64,000 bases of DNA, taken from positions 124,001 through 188,000 of the forward strand of contig NZ_CP024870.1 of NCBI RefSeq assembly GCF_002795265.1, in the 5' to 3' direction. Each line of letters opens with the position of its first letter. Position 1 is the first letter of the stretch. The stretch is from Spiroplasma clarkii. Lineage in GTDB: Bacteria; Bacillota_I; Bacilli_A; Mycoplasmatales; Mycoplasmataceae. The position numbers and the translations under genes are program-made. This document shows, one piece after another, positions 19,334-61,432 of the stretch. Under the pieces are notes generated by a model. It had not been told where the DNA came from. It made no database searches and saw nothing but the letters and a program-made list of their open reading frames with translations.

Positions 19334-20043
19334 ATATTGATTGAAATGAAATTTTAGTTTATAAGGATGCTGAAATTATTCACACAGAAAGTTCAATGGT
19401 GTTGAGAGATTTGATTACCTCAGAAGTTCTTTTTACTGGTGATGAAGCAGTAGAACATTTGAAAGATCAAAAAAATTTGCTAGCGATTGTTCCTGTTGAA
19501 AATAAAAAAATTCTTTCATACCCAGATTTAAATTTAGTACTTGAAGCTATCATTCAAAAATTATGCTTGAAAGAAGTTTTCTTTGTTGACAGGTATCATA
19601 TTAATAAAAATAAATTGTCAAACAAACTTGGTTTGATTGATGAAATAGATTTTTTTAAAAAAATAGCAAGTAAAAACAAATACATTGAGTTGAGAAATAA
19701 TGAACTTCAGATTTTTGATTTGACTAATAATGATTTAGAAAAAATTGAAATTGGTTATTATAAAATTCTTAGTTCCCTAAACAGTTATTGTTATTTAAAC
19801 CATAACGGATTATTGAATACAAAGAGTACCATAGAACTATTTGAAAAGTTAGTTTCAAATGAATTAAATGAGATTGAACTCAAAGAAATTGAGACTGGTA
19901 AAAATATGACTATAAAAAATTTTGACAAAGCAGCAATGTTGAGTGAGATCAATTTCTTTTATAAAAAAATTTTTGAAAAAAGATGTGAACAAGAATATGA
20001 CTACAATAAAAAGTTTTTGAAAGTGAAAAAAATTTGTGATTAA
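19321..20043 (+). CDS. Unknown protein with MreB/actin-like N-terminus
   Basis: A 240-residue protein overlapping the phosphatase gene by 13 bp. Residues 1 to about 80 recall the start of MreB: IDIDWNEILVY against the MreB phosphate loop DLGTANTLVY, then ESSMVLRDLITSEVLFTGDEA against EPSVIA...GDEA, then IVPVENKKILSYPDLNLVLEAIIQKL against the PL..GVI.D...... helix. The DLGT phosphate-binding residues are lost and the protein ends about 100 residues early, so nucleotide binding is unlikely. If the likeness is real this is a degenerate actin homologue within a PTS operon. I made the comparison by eye; a profile search is needed. Confidence 0.45.
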
Positions 20044-20227
20044 AATTGTAGTTCACGTCGTCATTGGAATCTGTTTATTACTCTGAAGCATTTTGTCATA
20101 TTATATAGTCAGAAAAGACAAACAGAATTTTATAAGTAAAAAAACACTTAGCCATTATTTTGTGCAAAGCATACCTTTAATTTTATTTGTTAGTGGTTCG
20201 CTGGTGTTGACTCTCTTATTTATTTAG
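20036..20227 (+). CDS. Small two-helix membrane protein
   Basis: A 63-residue ORF starting with GTG 20036, overlapping the end of the preceding gene by 8 bp, with two hydrophobic segments (about 3-23 and 45-62) around a basic loop (RKDKQNFISKK). Its size, layout and position at the end of a PTS operon mirror the protein at 1098-1325, though sequence similarity is slight. It contains one TGA Trp codon. Function unknown. Confidence 0.55.
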
Positions 20228-20275
20228 ATAAATTAATTTTTGCTACAGTTATTTTGATAGTAATCTCAATATTCT

Positions 20276-20311
20276 AATAGCCAGTGATAGAAGTCACTGG
20301 CTATTTAATTT
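20276..20311 (+). terminator. Terminator of the PTS-phosphatase operon
   Basis: Perfect 12-bp stem AATAGCCAGTGA / TCACTGGCTATT with a 6-nt loop. The T tract after it is short and interrupted. Confidence 0.8.
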
Positions 20312-20410
20312 GCATCACCTACAATTAGATTTTTTCCCTCATTATTTTTTGTTATTTTTCTAAATATAATTTTTAAACAACAAAACTTTCTAAAAAAAAT
20401 TTTAAACTTT

Positions 20411-20438
20411 TTGGCGAAAAAGCATTTTATCATACGAT
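20411..20438 (+). promoter_or_regulatory. Candidate promoter of the structured RNA
   Basis: TTGGCG (20411-20416), 16-nt spacer, TACGAT (20433-20438). Transcription would begin near 20445, a few bases before the first helix of the structured region. Each box matches consensus at 4 of 6 positions. Confidence 0.45.
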
Positions 20439-20445
20439 AAATTAA

Positions 20446-21455
20446 ATGAGGGGTGATACTGTTGAGGTCAAGTTGAGTTGTTGCAAATTGGCCATGACCT
20501 ATTCAATTGAATAGCACCCCTCCCAACTCAAACCTACATTTTTAATGGTTTTTATTCTATTCTTCAAAGAAAACCCAATTTTGTAGTTAGGAGTTGGCTA
20601 AGCTCTTTATTATAAACCATTTGTCATCAGTCCCATTTCTTGTTCTTGCATTACAAGATTACATTGCAAATTATCTTCATTGCATTGTGTGAAGCAATCA
20701 GCAAAATGTGAGTTCTTCTCCTCACCTAGTGGCATTTCTCTTTGGCTACTGCTTATTGCAAACACTACTGCTTGGCATAATGAGTTTATAAAAGCATGTT
20801 TTATCATAGCATGTTCCTTTCAAAATAAGTAAAATATTCTCTATCTTTCAAAATATAATCAATTAAAAGCAATTGGTAGATTAATAGTTCAATTCTCGGC
20901 TAAAATTCAGACTCATGTTTAGCCGCTCCTTATCCTTTCAAAACATTAGCTCTACCAAAAGCATTTCGTCATAAAAATAGTATTCATAGTTGTTTAATTG
21001 TAATAATAGTCTGTGTTTTGGATAACTGATTGCCTTTAATAAATCAGTTGCTTTGTTAATACTTGCTTCAAGTATTAACACACCACTTCACAAAAACCAT
21101 TAAATGAACTGTTTCCTTTTGCAATTCAAATAATGATAACCAGGATATATTCATTAAAAACTTTTGTTAAATTATTAAAGAGTCTTACAACTCTTAATAC
21201 TTTAATTTTTTCATAGAGCACCTTCTCTACAAGTCATGCCGCTCTGTGAAATCTATAGTGTATATGATCAGAATAAAATAATTATTTTGGTAGCAATACC
21301 TCTGATCATTATATATTCACTTCCATTTAAGATAACTTAAATAAACACAATTATTCCCTTTGTGGAACACTAATCACTCATTAAGTGATAACAGGTTATT
21401 ATTCAAATAACCACTCAATCATAAAAAGCCTGCAACTAGTATTGCAGGCTTTTAT
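20446..21455 (+). ncRNA. Candidate large structured non-coding RNA (about 1 kb)
   Basis: No credible ORF exists here on either strand, yet the + strand is full of strong complementary pairs. Main helices: 20448-55/20515-22 (GAGGGGTG/CACCCCTC); 20465-70/20495-500; 20523-29/20591-97, with 20473-80 as an alternative or pseudoknot partner of 20524-31; 20534-38/20582-86; 20708-12/20721-25; 20788-93/20799-804; 20873-80/20951-58 enclosing 20897-904/20918-25; 21024-31/21042-49; 21054-65/21069-80 (12 bp); 21178-83/21190-95; 21212-19/21241-48; 21265-72/21301-08 enclosing a GNRA-capped hairpin GGTA-GCAA-TACC (21289-300); 21373-78/21384-89; 21394-400/21406-12. It ends in a strong intrinsic terminator. 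Size and complexity recall ornate large RNAs such as ROOL, GOLLD or OLE, but I cannot assign a family. Confidence 0.65.
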
Positions 21456-21458
21456 TTT
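21424..21458 (+). terminator. Terminator of the structured RNA
   Basis: Perfect 12-bp stem AAAAGCCTGCAA / TTGCAGGCTTTT, 6-nt loop, then TATTTT. With no upstream gene after the previous terminator, it must serve a transcript starting within 20.3-21.4 kb. Confidence 0.9.
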
Positions 21459-21481
21459 GTAAACTCGTAAATTTATCCATA

Positions 21482-21547
21482 TTTGGAATTGCGTTCCAGA
21501 AAATTTTTTAATTTTAGATTTAAAATAAAAATGAGCAGAAAACCTGC
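21482..21547 (+). promoter_or_regulatory. Operator site 1, promoter and 5' mRNA hairpin
   Basis: Palindrome TTTGGAAT-TGC-GTTCCAGA centred at 21491, then TAAAAT (-10) at 21521-21526, 30 bp from the palindrome centre to the first base of the -10. The -35 region is poor. At the predicted transcript 5' end lies a hairpin GCAG / CTGC (21535-21547). One of six related sites in the window. Confidence 0.6.
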
Positions 21548-40002: not shown

Positions 40003-41985
40003 ATGTCAAAGTTAAAATTAAAAAATATAAATAAAGTCTATCCCAATGGAGTTCATGCAGTTTGTAATTTCGATGTAGAAATTGCTGACAAAGAATTTAT
40101 TGTTTTAGTAGGACCAAGTGGATGTGGAAAATCTACAGTCTTACGTATGATTTCTGGTTTAGAAAATATTAGTCGAGGTGAATTTTGAATTGATGACTTA
40201 GTTGTTAACTTAATTTCACCAGCAGACAGAGACATCTCAATGGTTTTTCAAAGTTATGCTTTGTATCCCCATATGACTGTCTATGACAATGTTGCATTTT
40301 CTTTAAAATTAAGAAAATATGATAAGTTTACAATTAGTGATAAAGTTAATGGTGCTGCTAAAAAATTAGGGCTATCTCATTTACTTTCAAGAAAACCAAA
40401 AGAATTATCTGGAGGTCAACGTCAAAGAGTTGCCCTAGCAAGATCAATTGTTAGAAAACCAAAAATATTTTTAATGGATGAACCATTAAGTAACTTGGAC
40501 GCAGCCTTGCGTCAAGAAATGAGAATCATGATTAAAAATTTACATAGAGATTTAAAAACAAATATTATTTATGTAACTCACGATCAAATTGAAGCCATGA
40601 CAATGGCTGACAGAATTATTGTTATGAATGATGGTTTTGTCCAACAAGTTGGAAAACCAGATGAAATCTTTTTAAAACCAGCTAATTTATTTGTCGCAAA
40701 ATTTATAGGTACTCCCCAAATTAATTTAATAAAAGGAACCTATGCTAAAGGTGTCTTTGCTGGTTGTGGATTTAATTTTTCAGTACCAAAAGTTATGATG
40801 AGTAAGTTAGATGTTTATGAAAATAAAGAAATTATTTTAGGAGTTCGTCCAACTGATATTCAGTTTAATGAAGCTACAAAATTAACTTATCCAGAAACAG
40901 TATTTAAATTAAAAATTTCAAATGAAGAAGTTATGGGTTCAGAAGTTAACTTGTTTGGAGTTAATACAAAAGATGAAACAACTAACAAAAAAATCTTAAC
41001 TGTAAAAATTCCTTTTTATGAATATTCAATTATGAATAAAAGTGGAACCAAAGAAATTGAATTTGCTATTGACTTAAACAAAATTCATTTCTTTGATCCA
41101 GTTTCACAGTTAAATATAACTGTTGAAAATAATTTAGAAACTAAAAAAGCAATTCAAAACTTTACAGAGAATGAAAAAATTAGAAATACTCGTTCATCAT
41201 TGATGAACTTGCAAAAATACAGAGATGCAAGTAAATTAAAATTAAGTCAAATTTACTCTAACTTTACTAAACTAGAAAATACTGAACATGATAAAGCAAA
41301 ACTAGAATATCAAAAATCAAAACTTGAACTACAATTAACTAAGGATAATAAAAATAACAGTAAAATTGAAAAAAATATTTCAAATTTAAATACAAAAATT
41401 TCAAAAGTTGAAGATACTATAAGTCACTTACAAAAAAAACAAGAGCATATTCAAAGTATTAAGTTTGCTCAAAGTGATTTAAGAAAATACTATGATGAGA
41501 AAATTATTTACAATAATTTCTTATTAGAGTCAAAGCTTAATAGTAAAAATTATGATAAATTAAAATCTGCTGTTCTGAAAAAGAATCATGATTTAGAATT
41601 TAAAAAATCATTAATCTTTAATGATGCCAAAATTCCAAAATTTTCTGCAAGATTTTTAATCTCACCAAAATTAAATAGAACTAGAAAATTAGCAATTCAA
41701 GATTCAATTGGTTTTAATTTAATTAAAGCTAATGCAAAATTAAAAACTGAGTTAAAAGAAACTCTTAAAGAAAATAAAGTCTATAAAAATGCAAAACTAA
41801 ATGAAGAAAATATTAACAAGAGCGATGCCATGAAAATCATTGATGAGTTCAATGCAAAAAACAAAGCAGCTAAAGAAAAATATTTAAAAACAAAAAATGA
41901 AAACATTTCAAAATTTATTGAAATGAAAATTGAATATACTAAAAAAATAAATGCTATGAAAGAAAAGGAAAGTAAAAATGTCTAG
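40003..41985 (+). CDS. ABC importer ATPase (MalK/UgpC type) with C-terminal coiled coil
   Basis: A 660-residue protein, against about 370 for normal MalK. Residues 1-235 are a complete ATPase (GPSGCGKST, VFQSYALYPHM, SGGQRQR, IFLMDEPLSNLD, VTHDQIEAMT); about 240-375 is the regulatory domain. Residues about 385-660 are Lys/Glu/Asn-rich with strong coiled-coil periodicity (EKNISNLNTKISKVEDTISHLQKK). Here the addition is on the ATPase, while in the other importers it is on permeases. The end overlaps the mannosidase start by 8 bp. Confidence 0.9.
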
Positions 41986-44656
41986 CAAGAAATTGAAAAT
42001 ATATTTTGTACCGCATACTCATTGAGATAAAGAATGATACTTCACAAAAGAAGCATCATCAGTATTTTTAGTCGACAACATTGCCAAACTAAAAGAAATT
42101 GCTGATAACAGTGATTCATTTTCACATCATATTTATGATAGTCAGTTATCAATTGTTGATGACTATCTAGAGTTTTATCCTGAAGACTATAAACATATTA
42201 AGAGATTAATTACTGAAAAGAAACTAATTGTCGGACCATGATATTCACAACCTGATATGTTTTCAACATCAGGAGAGTCATTAATCCGGAACCTAAGTTA
42301 TGGAAAACATTTTGCCAAAGAATTAGGTTTTACAGCAAAACAAGCTTACACCCCAGACTCATTTGGTTTTAATTCTAATTTACCCCAAATTTTAAAACAC
42401 AATGACTGTGATGCCATCATTCAGTGAAGAGGTGTTGATGACAGCCACATTGGTGCTGATGTTTTTAATAAATGAACAGGAATTGATGGATCACAAGTTT
42501 ATCTTTATAACTTATTTAAATATGGTTATGGTTTAACTTACTGAGCTTTTAATTCTGTTTATAAAAATTGAGATGCTTCAAACATGCGTGAACTTGCCAA
42601 AGAATATTTAGCAAAATTTAAAGATGGTTCACGTGATGATTTAATTAATTTGAAAAAAAGAAACAAGTCAAACATGTTATGTTTCCCATTTGGTTCAGAC
42701 CAAAGTCCAGTCATTGAATGGCTACCAATTTTTATAAAATATTTAAATGAACTTGATGATGAAAATGAATGGATCTTAAGTTATTATGATAATTTTATTG
42801 CTGACTTAATAAAAAATTATGATGCAGAAATTAATGAAATTCAAGGTGAATTAAAATATGGTAAATATTCAAGAACTCACCGAACAATTGGTTCATCAAG
42901 ATATGATATAAAAAGTTTAAACAAACATGCTGAAAATCTTTTATATAATGTTGCTGAACCTTTAGGAATTTTATACCACCAGTTTACAGGCAAATACCCA
43001 ACAAAAATTTATCAAAAAGCATTGAGATTACTGCTAGAATCACATGCCCATGACAGCCTTGGAGGTAGTTGTACCGATGAGGCTAATGGAGAAGTTTTAA
43101 ATAGAATTAAAAAAGCAATCTTCATGTTAGAATCTCAAAACACTTTAATTAAAAAGAGAATTGTAGAATACCTTAATTTAGAAAAAAATGATCTATTAAT
43201 TTTTAACTTGTTACCTTATGAGAGAAATGTTTCAACAAAAATAAAAGTTGTTACAAAGTCAAAAGTTTTTAAAATAATGTCTGGAGCTAAAGAACTTGAT
43301 TATGCTTTAGTCGACAGTGATTATTTTGACAGAAGTAATTTTATCATCTCAACTGATTCTCAAATTAAAAATGATGCATCAGAAAAAGGATTTTATGTTC
43401 ACAATGTAAATCTAAACTCAGTGATAATTCCTGGAGTTAGCTATAAAATTTTACAAGTAGTTGAAGATGAAGAAAAACCATTTAAAAATATTTTAAGAAA
43501 AAAACATGTTACAAATTCAATTAGTAATAGTTTTTATGATGTAAAGTTTATCAATAATGTTTTTGAAATTACTGATAAAAGTAAAAATAAAAAATATGAT
43601 TTGTATTTAGAAGCAACTCAAGATGCTGGTGACACTTATGACTTTTCACCAAAAATTGGTGCTCAAGAAATTATGGCACCCAAGTCAGCAAAATGTCTTA
43701 CTGAAAGTGATACTCAAGTTTCAAAACTTGTAACTTCATTACAATATAGCGTTAATGAAGATTTAAATTCAAAAGTAAAAATCACTCAAGCAGTTAAAGT
43801 GACAATCGCAATAATTAATGAAACTATTAATTTTAAAATTAATATGAAAAATGAAGCCAAAGACATTCGTTGAAGATTTGTTTTAAATACAAATCAAAGC
43901 AATAAAACTTCATTTGCAGATCAAGCTTTGTCACTGATTGAAAGACCAGTTTTTGAAACTGAAAAAATGCAAATTTGAGAAGCAGAGAAATGAAAAGACA
44001 TGCCAGTTGCAATTGAAAACTTTTCAAAATTTGTTTATGTAAAAACTGATAACAACAAAATTATTGGAGTTAAAAGTAATGACTTAAATGAATATGAATT
44101 AATTGGTGAGAAATTTGATAAACTTGCTCTAACATTGTTTAGGGGGGTATCATTAATTGGGCGCAGAGATCTCTTGTTTAGACCTGGTCGAGCTAGTGGG
44201 ATTAATGATTACCCACATGCAACACCAGAAAGTAATTTAAATAAAGAACTAAAATTTGAATTTGATTTATTGTTAAATAAAGATTTTGATGCTAACCAAA
44301 TTTATGATTCACTATCATATGCAGATTTTTATCAAAATCAAAATATTTCAGATTACTTATGAATTGGACAAACTTTTTGAAGAGCAAAAGTTGCTTGCAA
44401 AAATAACCAACCAGCACCACTAAATATCTTTAAAAATGTTCCAACTGGAGTTGTTGTTTCTGCATTGAAACTTTCATATGATGAAAAACACATAATTTGC
44501 AGGATTGCAAATTTAAGTGAAAATGATTTTAACTTAAAAAATCATCTAAATGATTATGAGTTATTTGAAACTAATGCTCTTGAAAAAGAACAAAGTCAAG
44601 TAACTGAGATCTTAAAGAAAAATGAAATTAAAACACTAATAGTTAAATTAAAATAG
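41978..44656 (+). CDS. Alpha-mannosidase, GH38 (MngB-like), copy 1
   Basis: An 892-residue cytosolic glycosidase. HTHWDKEWY (residues about 13-21) supplies zinc-binding His and Asp, PDSFGFN the catalytic nucleophile Asp, and ESHAHDSLGG the last zinc His. GPWYSQPD and DAGDTYDFSP also match E. coli MngB. MngB hydrolyses 6-phospho-mannosylglycerate, but linkage to an ABC importer suggests unphosphorylated manno-oligosaccharides here. The start overlaps the ATPase gene, so importer and hydrolase are translated together. Confidence 0.92.
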
Positions 44657-54566: not shown

Positions 54567-57356
54567 ATGAAGAAGAACTTAAAAATCTATCTAGTTCCAC
54601 ATACACACTGAGACAAAGAATGATACTTTATTAAAGATGTCAGTGATGTTTACTTAGTGGACAACATGAAAAACATACTCAACAGTCATAAAGCTAACAA
54701 AGATGAAGCACAATTTTGTTGAGATGGTCAATATTCAATTATTGATGATTACCTTAAATTCTTTCCTGATCAAAAAAGTAAACTAAAGAAATTGGTTGAA
54801 CAAAAAAAACTAATTATTGGACCCTGATACACCCAACCAGATACTTTTAACACATTAGGAGAATCAATAGTTCGAAACTTACTAGTTGGAACAAAATTAG
54901 CCCAAGAACTTGGCCACTCAATGCAAGTGGCTTACTTACCAGATACATTTGGTTTTAATTCCAACTTACCCCAAATCATTTCTAAAACAAATAATTTAGG
55001 AATCATAAATTGAAGAGGAGCTGATGATGAATTAGTAAAACATAATCTTTTCAATTTATGAGAAGCAGATGATGGAACCAAGTATCCAACTTACAATTTA
55101 TTTAGACATGGTTATTATACTGGGGTTGGAGGTTTGTTAAAACAATATCACAAAAACTGAAGTAAAGATGATGAAGTGAATTGAGATCCAGATCAGTTTG
55201 CTAGTAAACATGCTCAAGTTTATTTAGATTGAGTAAAATCTGAAGTTGAAATTTTAGAAGCCAGGGCTGCCTCAACTAACAACAGAATTTTAATTCCCAT
55301 TGGTTCAGACCAAATGCCAATGGTTAAGGGTTGAAAAAAAGTTATAGCAGCTATGAATGAAATTGATCCAGAGAATGAATACATCTTGTCTGACTTTGAA
55401 AGTTTCTTTGCAGATTTAGTCAATGATCCAGAAGTAATGCAAAAGGCTCAAACCATTAAAGGACAATTTCGATATGGAAAATATGCTCGAGCACATAAAA
55501 CTATTACTTCATCTCGCTATGATATTAAAAAATTATCAAGAGAAGTTGAAAATTTAATTTACAAAGAACTTGAACCATTAGCTGTTATGTATAAAGAATT
55601 TAAAGGTGAGTATCCTAGTGAAATAATTTTAGAAGCCACTAAGCTACTTGTTTCATGTCATGCACACGACTCTTTGGGAGGATGTAATACTGATGAAACT
55701 AATAGAGCTATTATTGCTCGTTTAGAATCAGCACAAGGATTAGTTGAAGGACAAATTACTTTAATTAAAAAAAGAATCATGGAAAAAATGAAGTTAAATC
55801 AAAATGATATTTTGTTATTTAATTTAGAACCCTATGCTTTTGAAAAAGAGTTTTGCATCAAAGTAAATACAAGAAAACAAAGTTTTGCTTTAAAAGAAAA
55901 TCAACAAAATATAAATTTTGGTATCAGTAAACAATTATTTTTTGACAATGATAACTTTAAAATTGTTGATTCTTCAACAGATTTTATTAACAAAGAACAA
56001 AAAGTTTATTCAAACTTAGCTGAAAAAGATTTAAATGCCACTAACTTTTTACTTGAAGAAGCTACTGGTAGATTTCAAACCACAGTGAATTTTAAATTAG
56101 CAATGCCAGGATTTGGTTATAAAGTAATTTCTCTTACAGAGTTAGAACAACCAACCAACATTGTTAATCAAAAAGAAACTTACATCGAAAATGAATTTTT
56201 TAAAATTTGAGTTGAAGCCAATGAAATAAAATTGTTTGACAAAAAAAGAAATCAAACTTACTCAAATTTTTTAGAACTTGAAGCTCATATTGATGCTGGA
56301 GATACTTATGATTTTTCTCCACCCAAAGAACATCAAGAAAAAATAAATCAGTTAACTGATTTAAAAATACTAACTCAAGTTCATAACAATATTAAAGTTA
56401 TGAATTTAAACTTAGTTTATAATTTCTCCGATATAACTTACAATGAAATAAATTATCAAACAAAATCTCAAGCAATCAACTTACACATAGTTTTAAATCA
56501 AGAAAAAATTGATTACAATTTAGAAATTGCAAATCAAGTTGAAAACATTCGTTGAAGAATTATTTTTAACTCAGAAATTAAAAATCAAAGCAACTCATTT
56601 GCAGATCAAGCCTATGCAATTGTTGCTAGAAAAATAAATGATGAACATACCAAAACTGCACTGAGTGAAAAATGAGTTGATTACCCAATTGAAATTGAAG
56701 CATGTGAATCACTAGTTTACTTAACAGATAATAAAACTGCTTTTGGAGTTTTTACAAAGGGAACCAATGAATATCAAATCATTGGAGCTAATCAAGAAAA
56801 AATTGCAATCACTTTATTTAGAGGTGTATCAAGAATAGGAAATCGTGACCTCTTGTATCGAGGTGGTAGAGCTAGTGGAATTAATGATTATCCTCATCCA
56901 ACTCCAGAAAGTAACTTACTTAAAAAGTTAGAATTTAGTTTAAGTACTTATGTTAGTGAAGACATTTTTAAACTAAATGTCTTATCAAAATTAAATGCTA
57001 CTCCAAGTGTTTACTATCAAAAACAAACAATTAATCAATTTCAATGAAAAGGTGATACCTTTGTTCAATCACAAAATAGTTTAAAAATTAAAAAACTACC
57101 TAATGAAATTAGTTTTGCAAATATATTAGCATTAAAAAATTTAGTTGTTACAACTATTAAACAAACATGAGATAAAAAAAATAATTTAATTAGATTTTAT
57201 AATCCAACTTCAAAAGTTTTAAAAATAGAAAGCAATGCATTAGGAGCTGAACTTAACTTGTTAGAAGAAGTACAATCAAATAGTATTTATGAAATTAATC
57301 CTAATGAAGTCAAAACGTTTGTTTTAAAATTAACTCATGAAAAAAAGTCTAGTTAG
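54567..57356 (+). CDS. Alpha-mannosidase, GH38 (MngB-like), copy 2
   Basis: A 929-residue enzyme with the same core as copy 1: HTHWDKEWY, GPWYTQPD, PDTFGFN (nucleophile Asp), CHAHDSLGGCNTDE and DAGDTYDFSP. AAAGGAG RBS before ATG 54567. First gene of an operon that includes a fructose/MngA-type PTS, so it may act on PTS-phosphorylated mannosides, as MngB does. Paralogy with 41978 and 58823 is clear, but all three have diverged, suggesting different linkage preferences. Confidence 0.92.
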
Positions 57357-58869
57357 CGATGAACAGTTGGAATTAGTAAAAGATAATTTGGAATTAAACT
57401 TTTTACTACCAAATAAACTTTACAAAAACATTTGAGTTTTAACCTTGCCAATCTACTTACAATTAATTTCTACAGTAGTTTTATCAATGGTTAACAATTT
57501 ATTAATTAGATGAGTTGATGGAGGAGTTTGAACTTCAGTTATCAACAAAGCCAATTTTGCTTATAGTTGATTTAACTTTATCCCAACCTTTTCGTCTGCT
57601 GGTATCTTTGTTGTCATTGGCAACTTAATTGGTAAAGGTAAAAAAGATGAAATCTATCAAAGTGTCTTTCAAGGCTTTGTCTTTAACTTAGCATTATGTT
57701 GTCTTGTCATTTTAGGTTTGATCTTTTGTAAAAAATATATTTATGAATGAGCAAACCTACCACAAGAATATTGAAAAACAGCAGATATACTTTATTATAC
57801 AAACTTAGGAGCCTTACTGTTAGTCAGTGTTCACATTGTTATGCAAAGAGTTGAAGCTGCTAGCGGAAACTTAAAACATTTGTTCTTAGTGATTTTAGTA
57901 TCAGGAATCATTAATACTGTTATAGTTTGTGGCACTATGTTTTTAATAAATCCAGTGCTTAGTGTAGCACTGGGAGTAATTATTTCAAATTTATTTACAG
58001 TGATTGCGATGTTCTTTTTAAATCGTAAACATGTTAACTATAAAAAAATGTTAACTGACTTTAAAAAATGTTGGGACTCAGAGATATTAAAAACAATTTT
58101 AATTGTAATTATCCCATCAGTTGTTGAAACTTTGGTTTTCAACTTAGCTGCTGCAGTTAGTACAAAATTTATTACTGATGCTTCATTACTTTATGAAGAT
58201 GCTGATATTTTATTTGTTACTTTAATCTCAATTCAACAAATTACTAACTTTGGTTTATTAATGTCATCTGCTTTGGGTCAAGTTTCTTTAATTTATGTTT
58301 CTCGTTTAAATGGCTCAAAACTAACTGAACTTTGTGTTCCAGTTTCATTAAAAATTTGATACTTAACTTTAGTTGTGGCAATGCCTTTTTCACTAATAAC
58401 TGTGGCACTAACTTACCCATTGTTAAAAATTTATAATATACCAACAGAAGTAATTTGAAACACAGGTATTTTTATGTTTATTATTATTGCTGTTCAAGAT
58501 ATTGGTCGTTCAATGAACCAAGTTGGTTTATCCTCATTAAGGGCAGTCAAGTACACAGTTGTACCTGTAATTGTTTCAATAGTAACTCTACTAGTATTTA
58601 ATATTGGTTTTATCTATTTAACCTATTCATTAATGCAAATTCAAAAATGATTAGGTGAACAAAATGCAACTAATCAAGTCCAAGTAAAAAATATTGCTCG
58701 TAACTATTTATTAATAGTTTGTGGTATTCAAGCTGTGGAAGAAATTGTGAGAGGTGGACTCTACATGATTTTATGAACAAAAAAAGCTTGAATCAAAAAA
58801 CCCAGAAAGGAAGAAACCAATAATGAAAAAGACCAAGCTCTTTGTAGTTCCCCATGCTCACTGAGATAA
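57337..58869 (+). CDS. MATE-family membrane transporter
   Basis: A 510-residue protein with about twelve membrane helices (LTLPIYLQLISTVVLSMVNNLL near the N-terminus, IIPSVVETLVFNLAAAVSTKF at the start of the second half), the two-fold MATE layout. It overlaps copy 2 of the mannosidase by 20 bp and copy 3 by 47 bp, so it is embedded in the glycan operon. MATE proteins normally export drugs or metabolites; here it might export a by-product of glycan breakdown. Product class is likely, role speculative. Confidence 0.78.
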
Positions 58870-61432
58870 AGAGTGATATTTTACTAAACAAGAAGCAGAT
58901 CTCTTATTACAAATTAATATGCAAAAATTATTAAAGATTTTTGCTACTAAACCAAATTACAAAAACTTTATTTATGATGGGCAGAGTTCAATTATTGATG
59001 ATTACTTATTGTTTAATGATGACCACAAAGCAATTAACACAGCAGTAAAAAATAAAAAATTAGTTATTGGTCCTTGATACACTCAGCCAGATTTATTTAA
59101 TACAACTTCAGAAGGAATTGCTCGCAACTTGTTAATTGGCACTAATGCTGCTAAAAATTTGGGTCACTCAATGCAAGTGGCATATGTACCAGATTCATTT
59201 GGACAGTCATCACAAATGCCCCAAATTTTTAAAAAATTTGAACTAGATCATTTAATTTATTGAAGAGGTGTCAAAAATGAAGACATGCAAAATTCAGTTT
59301 TGCATTATTGAAAAGGAATTGATGGTACAACTATTAAAGCCTTAAATTTCTTGATGGGTTATTGAATTATGGGTTCATTCTTCCCTTATGCCCAATTAAA
59401 TTTAAATAATGTTAACAATCTAGCACAAAAATTTTTAAAAGATTTTTCTGCTAGTTTAAAAAAAATAAAACAATATAATGTTTTGTCTAGTGATAAAATA
59501 TTATTACCACTTGGTGGCGACCAAGCCCCAATTAATGAATTTATTCCTGAGTTTATTGAAGAATTAAATAAACTAGATCAAGAAAATGAATGAATTTTAT
59601 CAAACTATGAAGAATATTTTTCAGCAATAGCTGAGGTTAAAAATTTACCAACTATTACAGGAGAACTAAAGTATCCTCAAAATGCTCGGATTCATAAAAC
59701 AATTGGTTCTCAACGTTATGATATTAAAAAATCTTTAAAACAAACTGATAAACTTTTATTTGATCAGCTTGAACCATTAATTGTTTTTTCAAGTTTGGTT
59801 GGAGGCGACTCATATAAAAATATAATTAATACAGTTTTAAAAAAACTTTTAACTTCAAGTGCTCATGACTCTTTGGGTGGATGTTGCAGTGATACAGTTA
59901 ATGAAGATGTTTTAATGCGAATAAAAAATGCCAATGATACATTAGAATCTTTAAAAATTTATATTCTAAAATGTTTGTCAGTTGATGTTCATGAAAATCA
60001 AATTGTAGTTTTTAATCCATTAACAAGAGTTAATGAAACTAATTTAGAATTGACTTTGTTTACTAAATTCAAAAATTTTGAACTGCAATTTCAAGACCAA
60101 AATGTAGATTACTTAATTAAAAAACAGAAATTCATTCATGATGATGTTGATATTAATGTGGGAACTTTTGGTGAATCAACAGATGGTAAAGAAGGTTATT
60201 ATCGCACTAATTTAATTACTAGCAAAATTAACTTGCCTTCATTTGCATTAAGTACTCTAAAGATTGTTGAAAAAAAAGACTTGGTAACTAAAAAAGTCTT
60301 TGAAAATGATTTTTGAAGTATTCAAGTTAATGTCGATGGTACAGTTAACTTTAAAAATAAATTATTAAAAAAGGAATTTAAAAACCAGTATCGTCTTAAA
60401 GCCCAAATTGATAGTGGCGACTCATATGATTACTCACCGCTTGATGAGAGCAATAAAATAATTTCAAAATTAGTTGAAAATAAATATTTGGTTGAAGCTT
60501 CAAGTCAAGTGATAAAGGTACAATTGCAACAATTGTATCAAATTGAAAATAAAAAAGATCAAACCCTTACTTTAGAGTTATACTTTTTAGATAGTAATAA
60601 AATTAATGTTGAGTTAGAAATGGAGAATAAAAATTCTCAAATTCGTTGGACAATTGATTTAGATTCAAACTTCAAAAACCAACATTCATATGCTTCTCAA
60701 GCCTATGCAGATGTTAAAAGAGATGTAGAAATTCTTGAATGTAAAACTTGAAGAGAAGAACATTGAGCAGAAAAACCTCATCCCTTAGAAACTAATGAGG
60801 CCTATGTTTATTTGAAAAATAATGATTTAAAATATGGGGTCATTACTTTTGGGACTAATGAATATGAAATTATTGGCAAAGATTTTTCAACAATTGCAGT
60901 GACTTTGTTTCGCTCAGTTAGCTGTTTGGGTAAAAACAATTTGTTATGAAGGCCTGGAAGGGCTAGTGGTACTGGAGATTTTCAAATAAAAACTTATGAT
61001 TCAAAAATGTTAGGTAAACTTAAATTTAAACTGGTTCACATTGTTGATGCAAGTAAAAAATCGTTTTGAGCTTATGCTCAAGAGGAGTTGAATGCTCCTG
61101 TTTGAATTCAAAAACAAACATTAAATAAATATTTAAATAAATTTGAAAGATTTTTATTAATTGAAGATGTTAAACTAAAAAAACCACAAAAAAATATTAT
61201 TAATATTTCAAATCAAAATGTTGTAGTAAAATCATTAAAAATAAGTGAAGATGGTTCTTGTATAATTTTGAGAGTCTTTAACCCGACAGAGGAGTTACAA
61301 AATTTTGAAATTGAAGGGGTGTTACAACCAATTTGTGAAACTAATTTTTTAGAAAAAGTAGAACTACCAATATCTTTAAAATTACAAGCATATGAAATTA
61401 AAACTTATAAATTAAAAACTAGAGGAGAGTAG
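58823..61432 (+). CDS. Alpha-mannosidase, GH38 (MngB-like), copy 3
   Basis: An 869-residue enzyme: HAHWDKEWY, GPWYTQPD, PDSFGQSSQMPQI (nucleophile Asp), SSAHDSLGGCCSD and DSGDSYDYSP. It resembles E. coli MngB slightly more than the other two copies (GQSSQ, CCCSD-like segment). RBS AGGAAG lies inside the MATE gene. Its stop is 1 bp from the PTS start, which pairs MngB-like hydrolase with MngA-like permease as in E. coli. Confidence 0.92.

Follow-up and report, generated by a model that had tools for sequence, protein, structure and literature searches.

A candidate structured non-coding RNA, about 1 kb long, flanked by sugar-use operons in Spiroplasma clarkii

The longest stretch of the Spiroplasma clarkii genome devoid of open reading frames of at least 75 aa (genetic code table 4, in which TGA is read as tryptophan) raises the question of what, if anything, it encodes. 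This stretch occupies positions 20044-21482 of the window, by which we mean the whole 64,000 nucleotides analysed (positions 124001-188000 of the 1,560,007-base, single-contig genome). As identified by reading, its neighbours are two sugar-use operons, a PTS operon upstream and an ABC operon downstream. Inside it, on the forward strand at 20446-21455, lies a candidate structured non-coding RNA of about 1.01 kb. We consider the best reading of this locus to be a long non-coding RNA gene that stands alone and is restricted to one species, most likely trans-regulatory, with a probability somewhat short of even; the trans-regulatory mechanism taken by itself we put well below that, as a rather unlikely proposition.

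An earlier note on this DNA had claimed that the region holds no credible ORF, and this was borne out: the longest reading frames span 63-73 aa, and a Pfam search of all six frames, with X at stops, yielded no match (best E 0.15). The same search led us to reject a decayed protein gene, one of the findings that the note had named as a refutation. Among the SD-like sites of the RNA, the strongest is at the extreme 5' end, the 5' strand of helix P1, whose duplex with the 16S tail is valued at -14.1 kcal/mol, a level reached by only 0.4% of random 30-mers. This site is sequestered in P1 and is followed by a 27-codon TTG frame (20462-20542) that could possibly specify a short leader peptide.

Upstream, the PTS operon appears to end before the candidate begins. 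Its last gene, read from the sequence, is a 63-aa membrane ORF with a GTG start (20036-20227, forward strand); no Pfam family was found for it, and in five relatives the PTS operon closes with a counterpart in the same position. Behind it, a 12-bp perfect inverted repeat with an AT-rich tail (20276-20305, forward strand), which the terminator scan did not list, is probably the operon's terminator. The promoter-like sequence described previously can be read as TTGGCG-16-TACGAT (20411-20438, forward strand), but this possible promoter is weaker than had been implied, matching consensus at 8 of 12 positions and lying below the threshold of the scanner, which left it unlisted. The sequence AAGCATTTYRTCATA is present in exactly three copies in the genome, in the same orientation and all within 900 bases (window 20086, 20420, and 20959); the first copy falls in the 63-aa ORF, the next in the spacer of the putative promoter, and the last inside the candidate. 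Repeat centres number 8, against at most 3 in 200 shuffles.

At its 3' end the candidate closes, as had been reported, with a strong intrinsic terminator (21424-21453, forward strand; 12-bp stem, T-rich tail), and the scan found no forward-strand terminator internal to the candidate. From this terminator to the likely GTG start (21568) of the ABC operon's lipoprotein gene is about 115 nt, and the candidate has the same orientation as that operon. Together with the sequestered SD-like 5' end, such an arrangement would suit a leader or attenuator of great length that regulates the ABC operon in cis, in which the terminator would be the switch and the TTG frame the leader peptide. However, the terminator is followed by a palindrome, TTGGAA-N5-TTCCA (21483-21498), that is probably the operator of the ABC operon and marks a boundary of the unit. 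Exactly three such sites exist in the genome (window 21483, 33936, and 48019), each directly before a lipoprotein gene of the sugar island, and they probably constitute the operator of a local regulon; the two other operons that share the site have no such RNA. Because the ABC operon has this operator-like palindrome of its own, and because the 5' arm of the terminator has no good antiterminator partner (7 bp at most), a cis-acting leader is argued against, and with no known riboswitch or leader family matched in Rfam we regard it as quite improbable. The apparent end of the upstream operon and the operator-like site of the downstream one argue instead for a separate unit.

Folding of the candidate exceeds chance, and does so preferentially on one strand. 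For the full-length forward strand the MFE was -241.2 kcal/mol, whereas 60 dinucleotide-shuffled versions gave -179.2 ± 7.5, so that z is -8.2; the minus strand gave z -4.2. Removal of the terminator, the 12-bp hairpin, and the 5' domain together left z at -6.0 on the forward strand and -1.8 on the reverse. The genome background, estimated from 53 random 1010-nt windows, had a mean z of -1.14 (sd 1.43, minimum -4.3), against -8.1 for the candidate on the same scale. Perfect Watson-Crick stems of at least 8 bp were also in excess (9, versus 2.1 ± 1.1 in shuffles), and many predicted helices have pair probabilities above 0.9. The description of the region as structured, without coding content, and unlike any known family is supported, with neither Pfam nor Rfam providing a match. 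An avoidance of unpaired G, initially striking, was equal in shuffles and was discarded. U and C are abundant in the unpaired regions; in a 1-kb piece of 23S rRNA from the same genome, such regions are A-rich.

The further claim that intergenic DNA elsewhere has less length and less structure held genome-wide, the remaining long ORF-free stretches having z of -0.7 to -3.7, but it needs qualifying for two of them. These additional long stretches (genome 325638-326634 and 714325-715746) carry hairpins and terminator-like ends and reach z of about -3.5. They have in common the 13-mer GTCTACGGAATTT, which is absent from the candidate, and no relatives of them were found in the genus.

The z-score is evidence of unusual folding, not of function. 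It is no test of function because the same test on the 23S rRNA piece returned only -0.5. Further, in the relative G013, a scan for an equivalent structured intergenic region (116/152 strand tests) returned only small genes, tRNA, and palindromes, and the few shorter intergenic regions that reached z -7 to -11.6 there did so because of small genes, tRNA, long inverted repeats or palindromes, or terminators. The existence of such palindrome-rich regions with strong z speaks for a reading of the candidate as non-functional foreign or decayed DNA in an acquired island that is hairpin-rich by chance, for example the tandem remains of terminators and palindromes. The genomic island that carries the candidate is lineage-specific, no relative of the candidate's sequence was found, and the 1.56-Mb genome of S. 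clarkii is reported to have many acquired genes and 472 genes without homologues (PMC6007557), all of which would fit such an origin. Nonetheless, decay lowers structure rather than raising it, the strand-specific folding excess lies far outside the genome background, and no frame shows a protein family match; we judge this explanation unlikely.

The helices, which are thermodynamic predictions with pair probabilities, form a series of forward-strand domains, and those listed in the earlier note are present in the predicted fold. In the 5' domain (20448-20522), P1 (20448-20455/20515-20522) surrounds two hairpins (pair probabilities 0.8-0.99), and the second domain (20523-20597) consists of 20523-20529/20591-20597 and 20534-20538/20582-20586 (0.91-0.92). 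A pseudoknot between these two domains had been proposed; its strand TTGAGTTG (20473-20480) is indeed a perfect 8-bp complement of 20524-20531 and does compete with helix 20523-20529/20591-20597; the pseudoknot may be viewed as a possible alternative pairing of the second domain's 5' strand. Next come a large multibranch domain (20610-20791) closed by about 21 bp (closing helices, 0.95-0.98) and an extended stem (20873-20958; 0.94-0.96) with an inner hairpin at 20897-20925. A 9-bp and a 12-bp hairpin (21023-21080; 0.94 and 0.98, respectively), the latter at 21054-21080, are succeeded by a region (21209-21317; 0.84-0.98; local z -4.65) in which an 11-bp hairpin precedes the GNRA tetraloop hairpin GGTA-GCAA-TACC (21289-21300), enclosed, as claimed, by a stem, here of 7+9 bp. 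The candidate also contains the 8-bp helix GAGGGGTG/CACCCCTC.

Searches for relatives covered RNA families, genomes, phages, and plasmids. A low-threshold Rfam scan, one of the checks proposed in the earlier note, was run on the window with all 4227 families at gathering and permissive thresholds; no family matched, and only sub-threshold small-RNA and terminator look-alikes were returned. RNase P RNA and tmRNA were rejected as identities, the genome's own genes being located at 1165819-1166163 and 1463426-1463837, respectively. Blastn yielded no relative of the candidate among phages and plasmids, nor in the genus and 320 genomes of the order, and the best short hits proved on inspection to be coding or AT-rich coincidences. 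Two covariance models, R1 for the 5' domain and R2 for a 3' domain, produced chance hits only in the 320 order genomes (for one domain, also in 395 class genomes); each was built from a single sequence and is insensitive to distant homologues, and together they span 299 of the 1010 bases, so that absence is established at that sensitivity only. One of these chance hits reads as infB. DNA patterns searched against genome and viral collections gave nothing real, and the downstream ABC genes, searched for as proteins in such collections, had no hits there. The five relatives mentioned above keep the upstream 245-aa gene and its PTS neighbours and have other genes or AT-rich DNA behind them, and neither covariance model finds the RNA anywhere in their genomes. 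The comparison with related mollicute genomes that had been called for was carried out over the order and class and brought no homologue to light, so that the helices stay thermodynamic predictions.

To our knowledge, few bacterial RNAs approach 1 kb. The nearest in size and complexity are ROOL (RF03087), GOLLD, and OLE, which are likewise large, multi-helix, and non-coding, with a possible pseudoknot; the functions of ROOL and GOLLD are unknown (PMC12286853). The ROOL covariance model matched neither the window nor the whole genome, although whole-genome controls were silent too, leaving its sensitivity uncalibrated; GOLLD gave no match at E up to 10 among all 4227 Rfam families, and the OLE model none in the Rfam scans of the window. 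By these scans the candidate is no recognisable ROOL, GOLLD, or OLE. It is also longer than these RNAs, and whereas they have a conserved, covarying architecture, its helices are predicted from one sequence. A phage, prophage, or tRNA-island context, as would be expected for ROOL, was not seen around the candidate, which is flanked by what read as sugar operons.

These resemblances bear on the main rival to a trans-acting, multi-loop regulator, namely a scaffold or structural "ornate large" RNA, which would form a compact and possibly oligomeric RNA-only or RNA-protein particle and make up its own family. Length, the many high-probability helices, the possible pseudoknot, and the GNRA tetraloop are all consistent with such a particle, and long species-restricted RNAs have a precedent in the 520-nt lncRNA of Lactobacillus salivarius, which is also structured, confined to one species, and of unknown function (PMC5643018). 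That RNA differs in being plasmid-borne and proven to be highly abundant, whereas the candidate is a sequence prediction, and no match to the former was seen among plasmids. The lack of an Rfam match counts against a scaffold, as do the U- and C-rich unpaired regions, unlike the A-rich ones of the 23S rRNA piece, and a setting in which no phage genes were recognised by reading and no tRNA occurs in the 64-kb window. We consider a scaffold RNA improbable, though worth retaining beside the preferred trans-acting RNA.

For a stand-alone trans-acting RNA, we propose a transcript that would begin near 20445 and run to the terminator, a single molecule of about 1.01 kb with several local domains and a 3' train of hairpins. 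Its helices would present pyrimidine-rich hairpin loops for pairing with purine-rich ribosome-binding sites of mRNAs, and the RNA would act in trans as a regulator. Hairpin loops are 67% pyrimidine, compared with 59% in shuffles (11 of 240 shuffles reach 67%), and 44% of loops hold a hexamer complementary to the genome's ribosome-binding-site hexamers; the figure for shuffles is 23%, and 5 of 240 attain 44%. Because the mean anti-SD loop score (reached by 60 of 240 shuffles) and the anti-SD averages across all unpaired segments were not significant, and because several measures were tried, this loop signal is a lead only. The missing homologue, the weak promoter (8/12), the failure of real rRNA to stand out in the z-test, and the fact that palindrome-rich regions of G013 do stand out all weigh against a stand-alone regulator.

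The candidate is about twice the length of RNAIII. Staphylococcal RNAIII-type regulators are multi-hairpin RNAs whose pyrimidine-rich loops can pair with ribosome-binding sites, as those of the candidate could (PMC2837412); they have no sequence relation or Rfam match to it, and its own loop signal reaches p of only about 0.02, with hypothetical targets. A new large bacterial RNA is credible but unproven. In its fullest form, as a functional structured RNA of about 1 kb with its own transcription, founding a new family confined to a single Spiroplasma lineage, exceeding ROOL, GOLLD, and OLE in size, and serving a new function (RNA scaffold or multi-target regulation), the proposal is a tentative one, to which we give appreciably less than an even chance. 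If true, such an RNA in a small mollicute genome, and with no relative detected, would imply that individual lineages can originate or acquire structured RNAs of very large size that are invisible to comparative methods. S. clarkii is available from a culture collection as DSM 19994 (PMC6007557), so the existence, ends, and structure of the RNA can be checked directly.

Two other features were observed. Three large paralogous proteins encoded in the window (41951-44656, 54567-57356, and 58721-61432) carry an N-terminal PHTHWDKEWYF/PHAHWDKEWYF motif and read as family-38-like glycosidases (alpha-mannosidases), which suggests that the island serves glycan use. Elsewhere in the genome (957647-962370), a CRISPR array adjoins genes that read as cas1 and cas2 and a 1178-aa Cas9-like gene.
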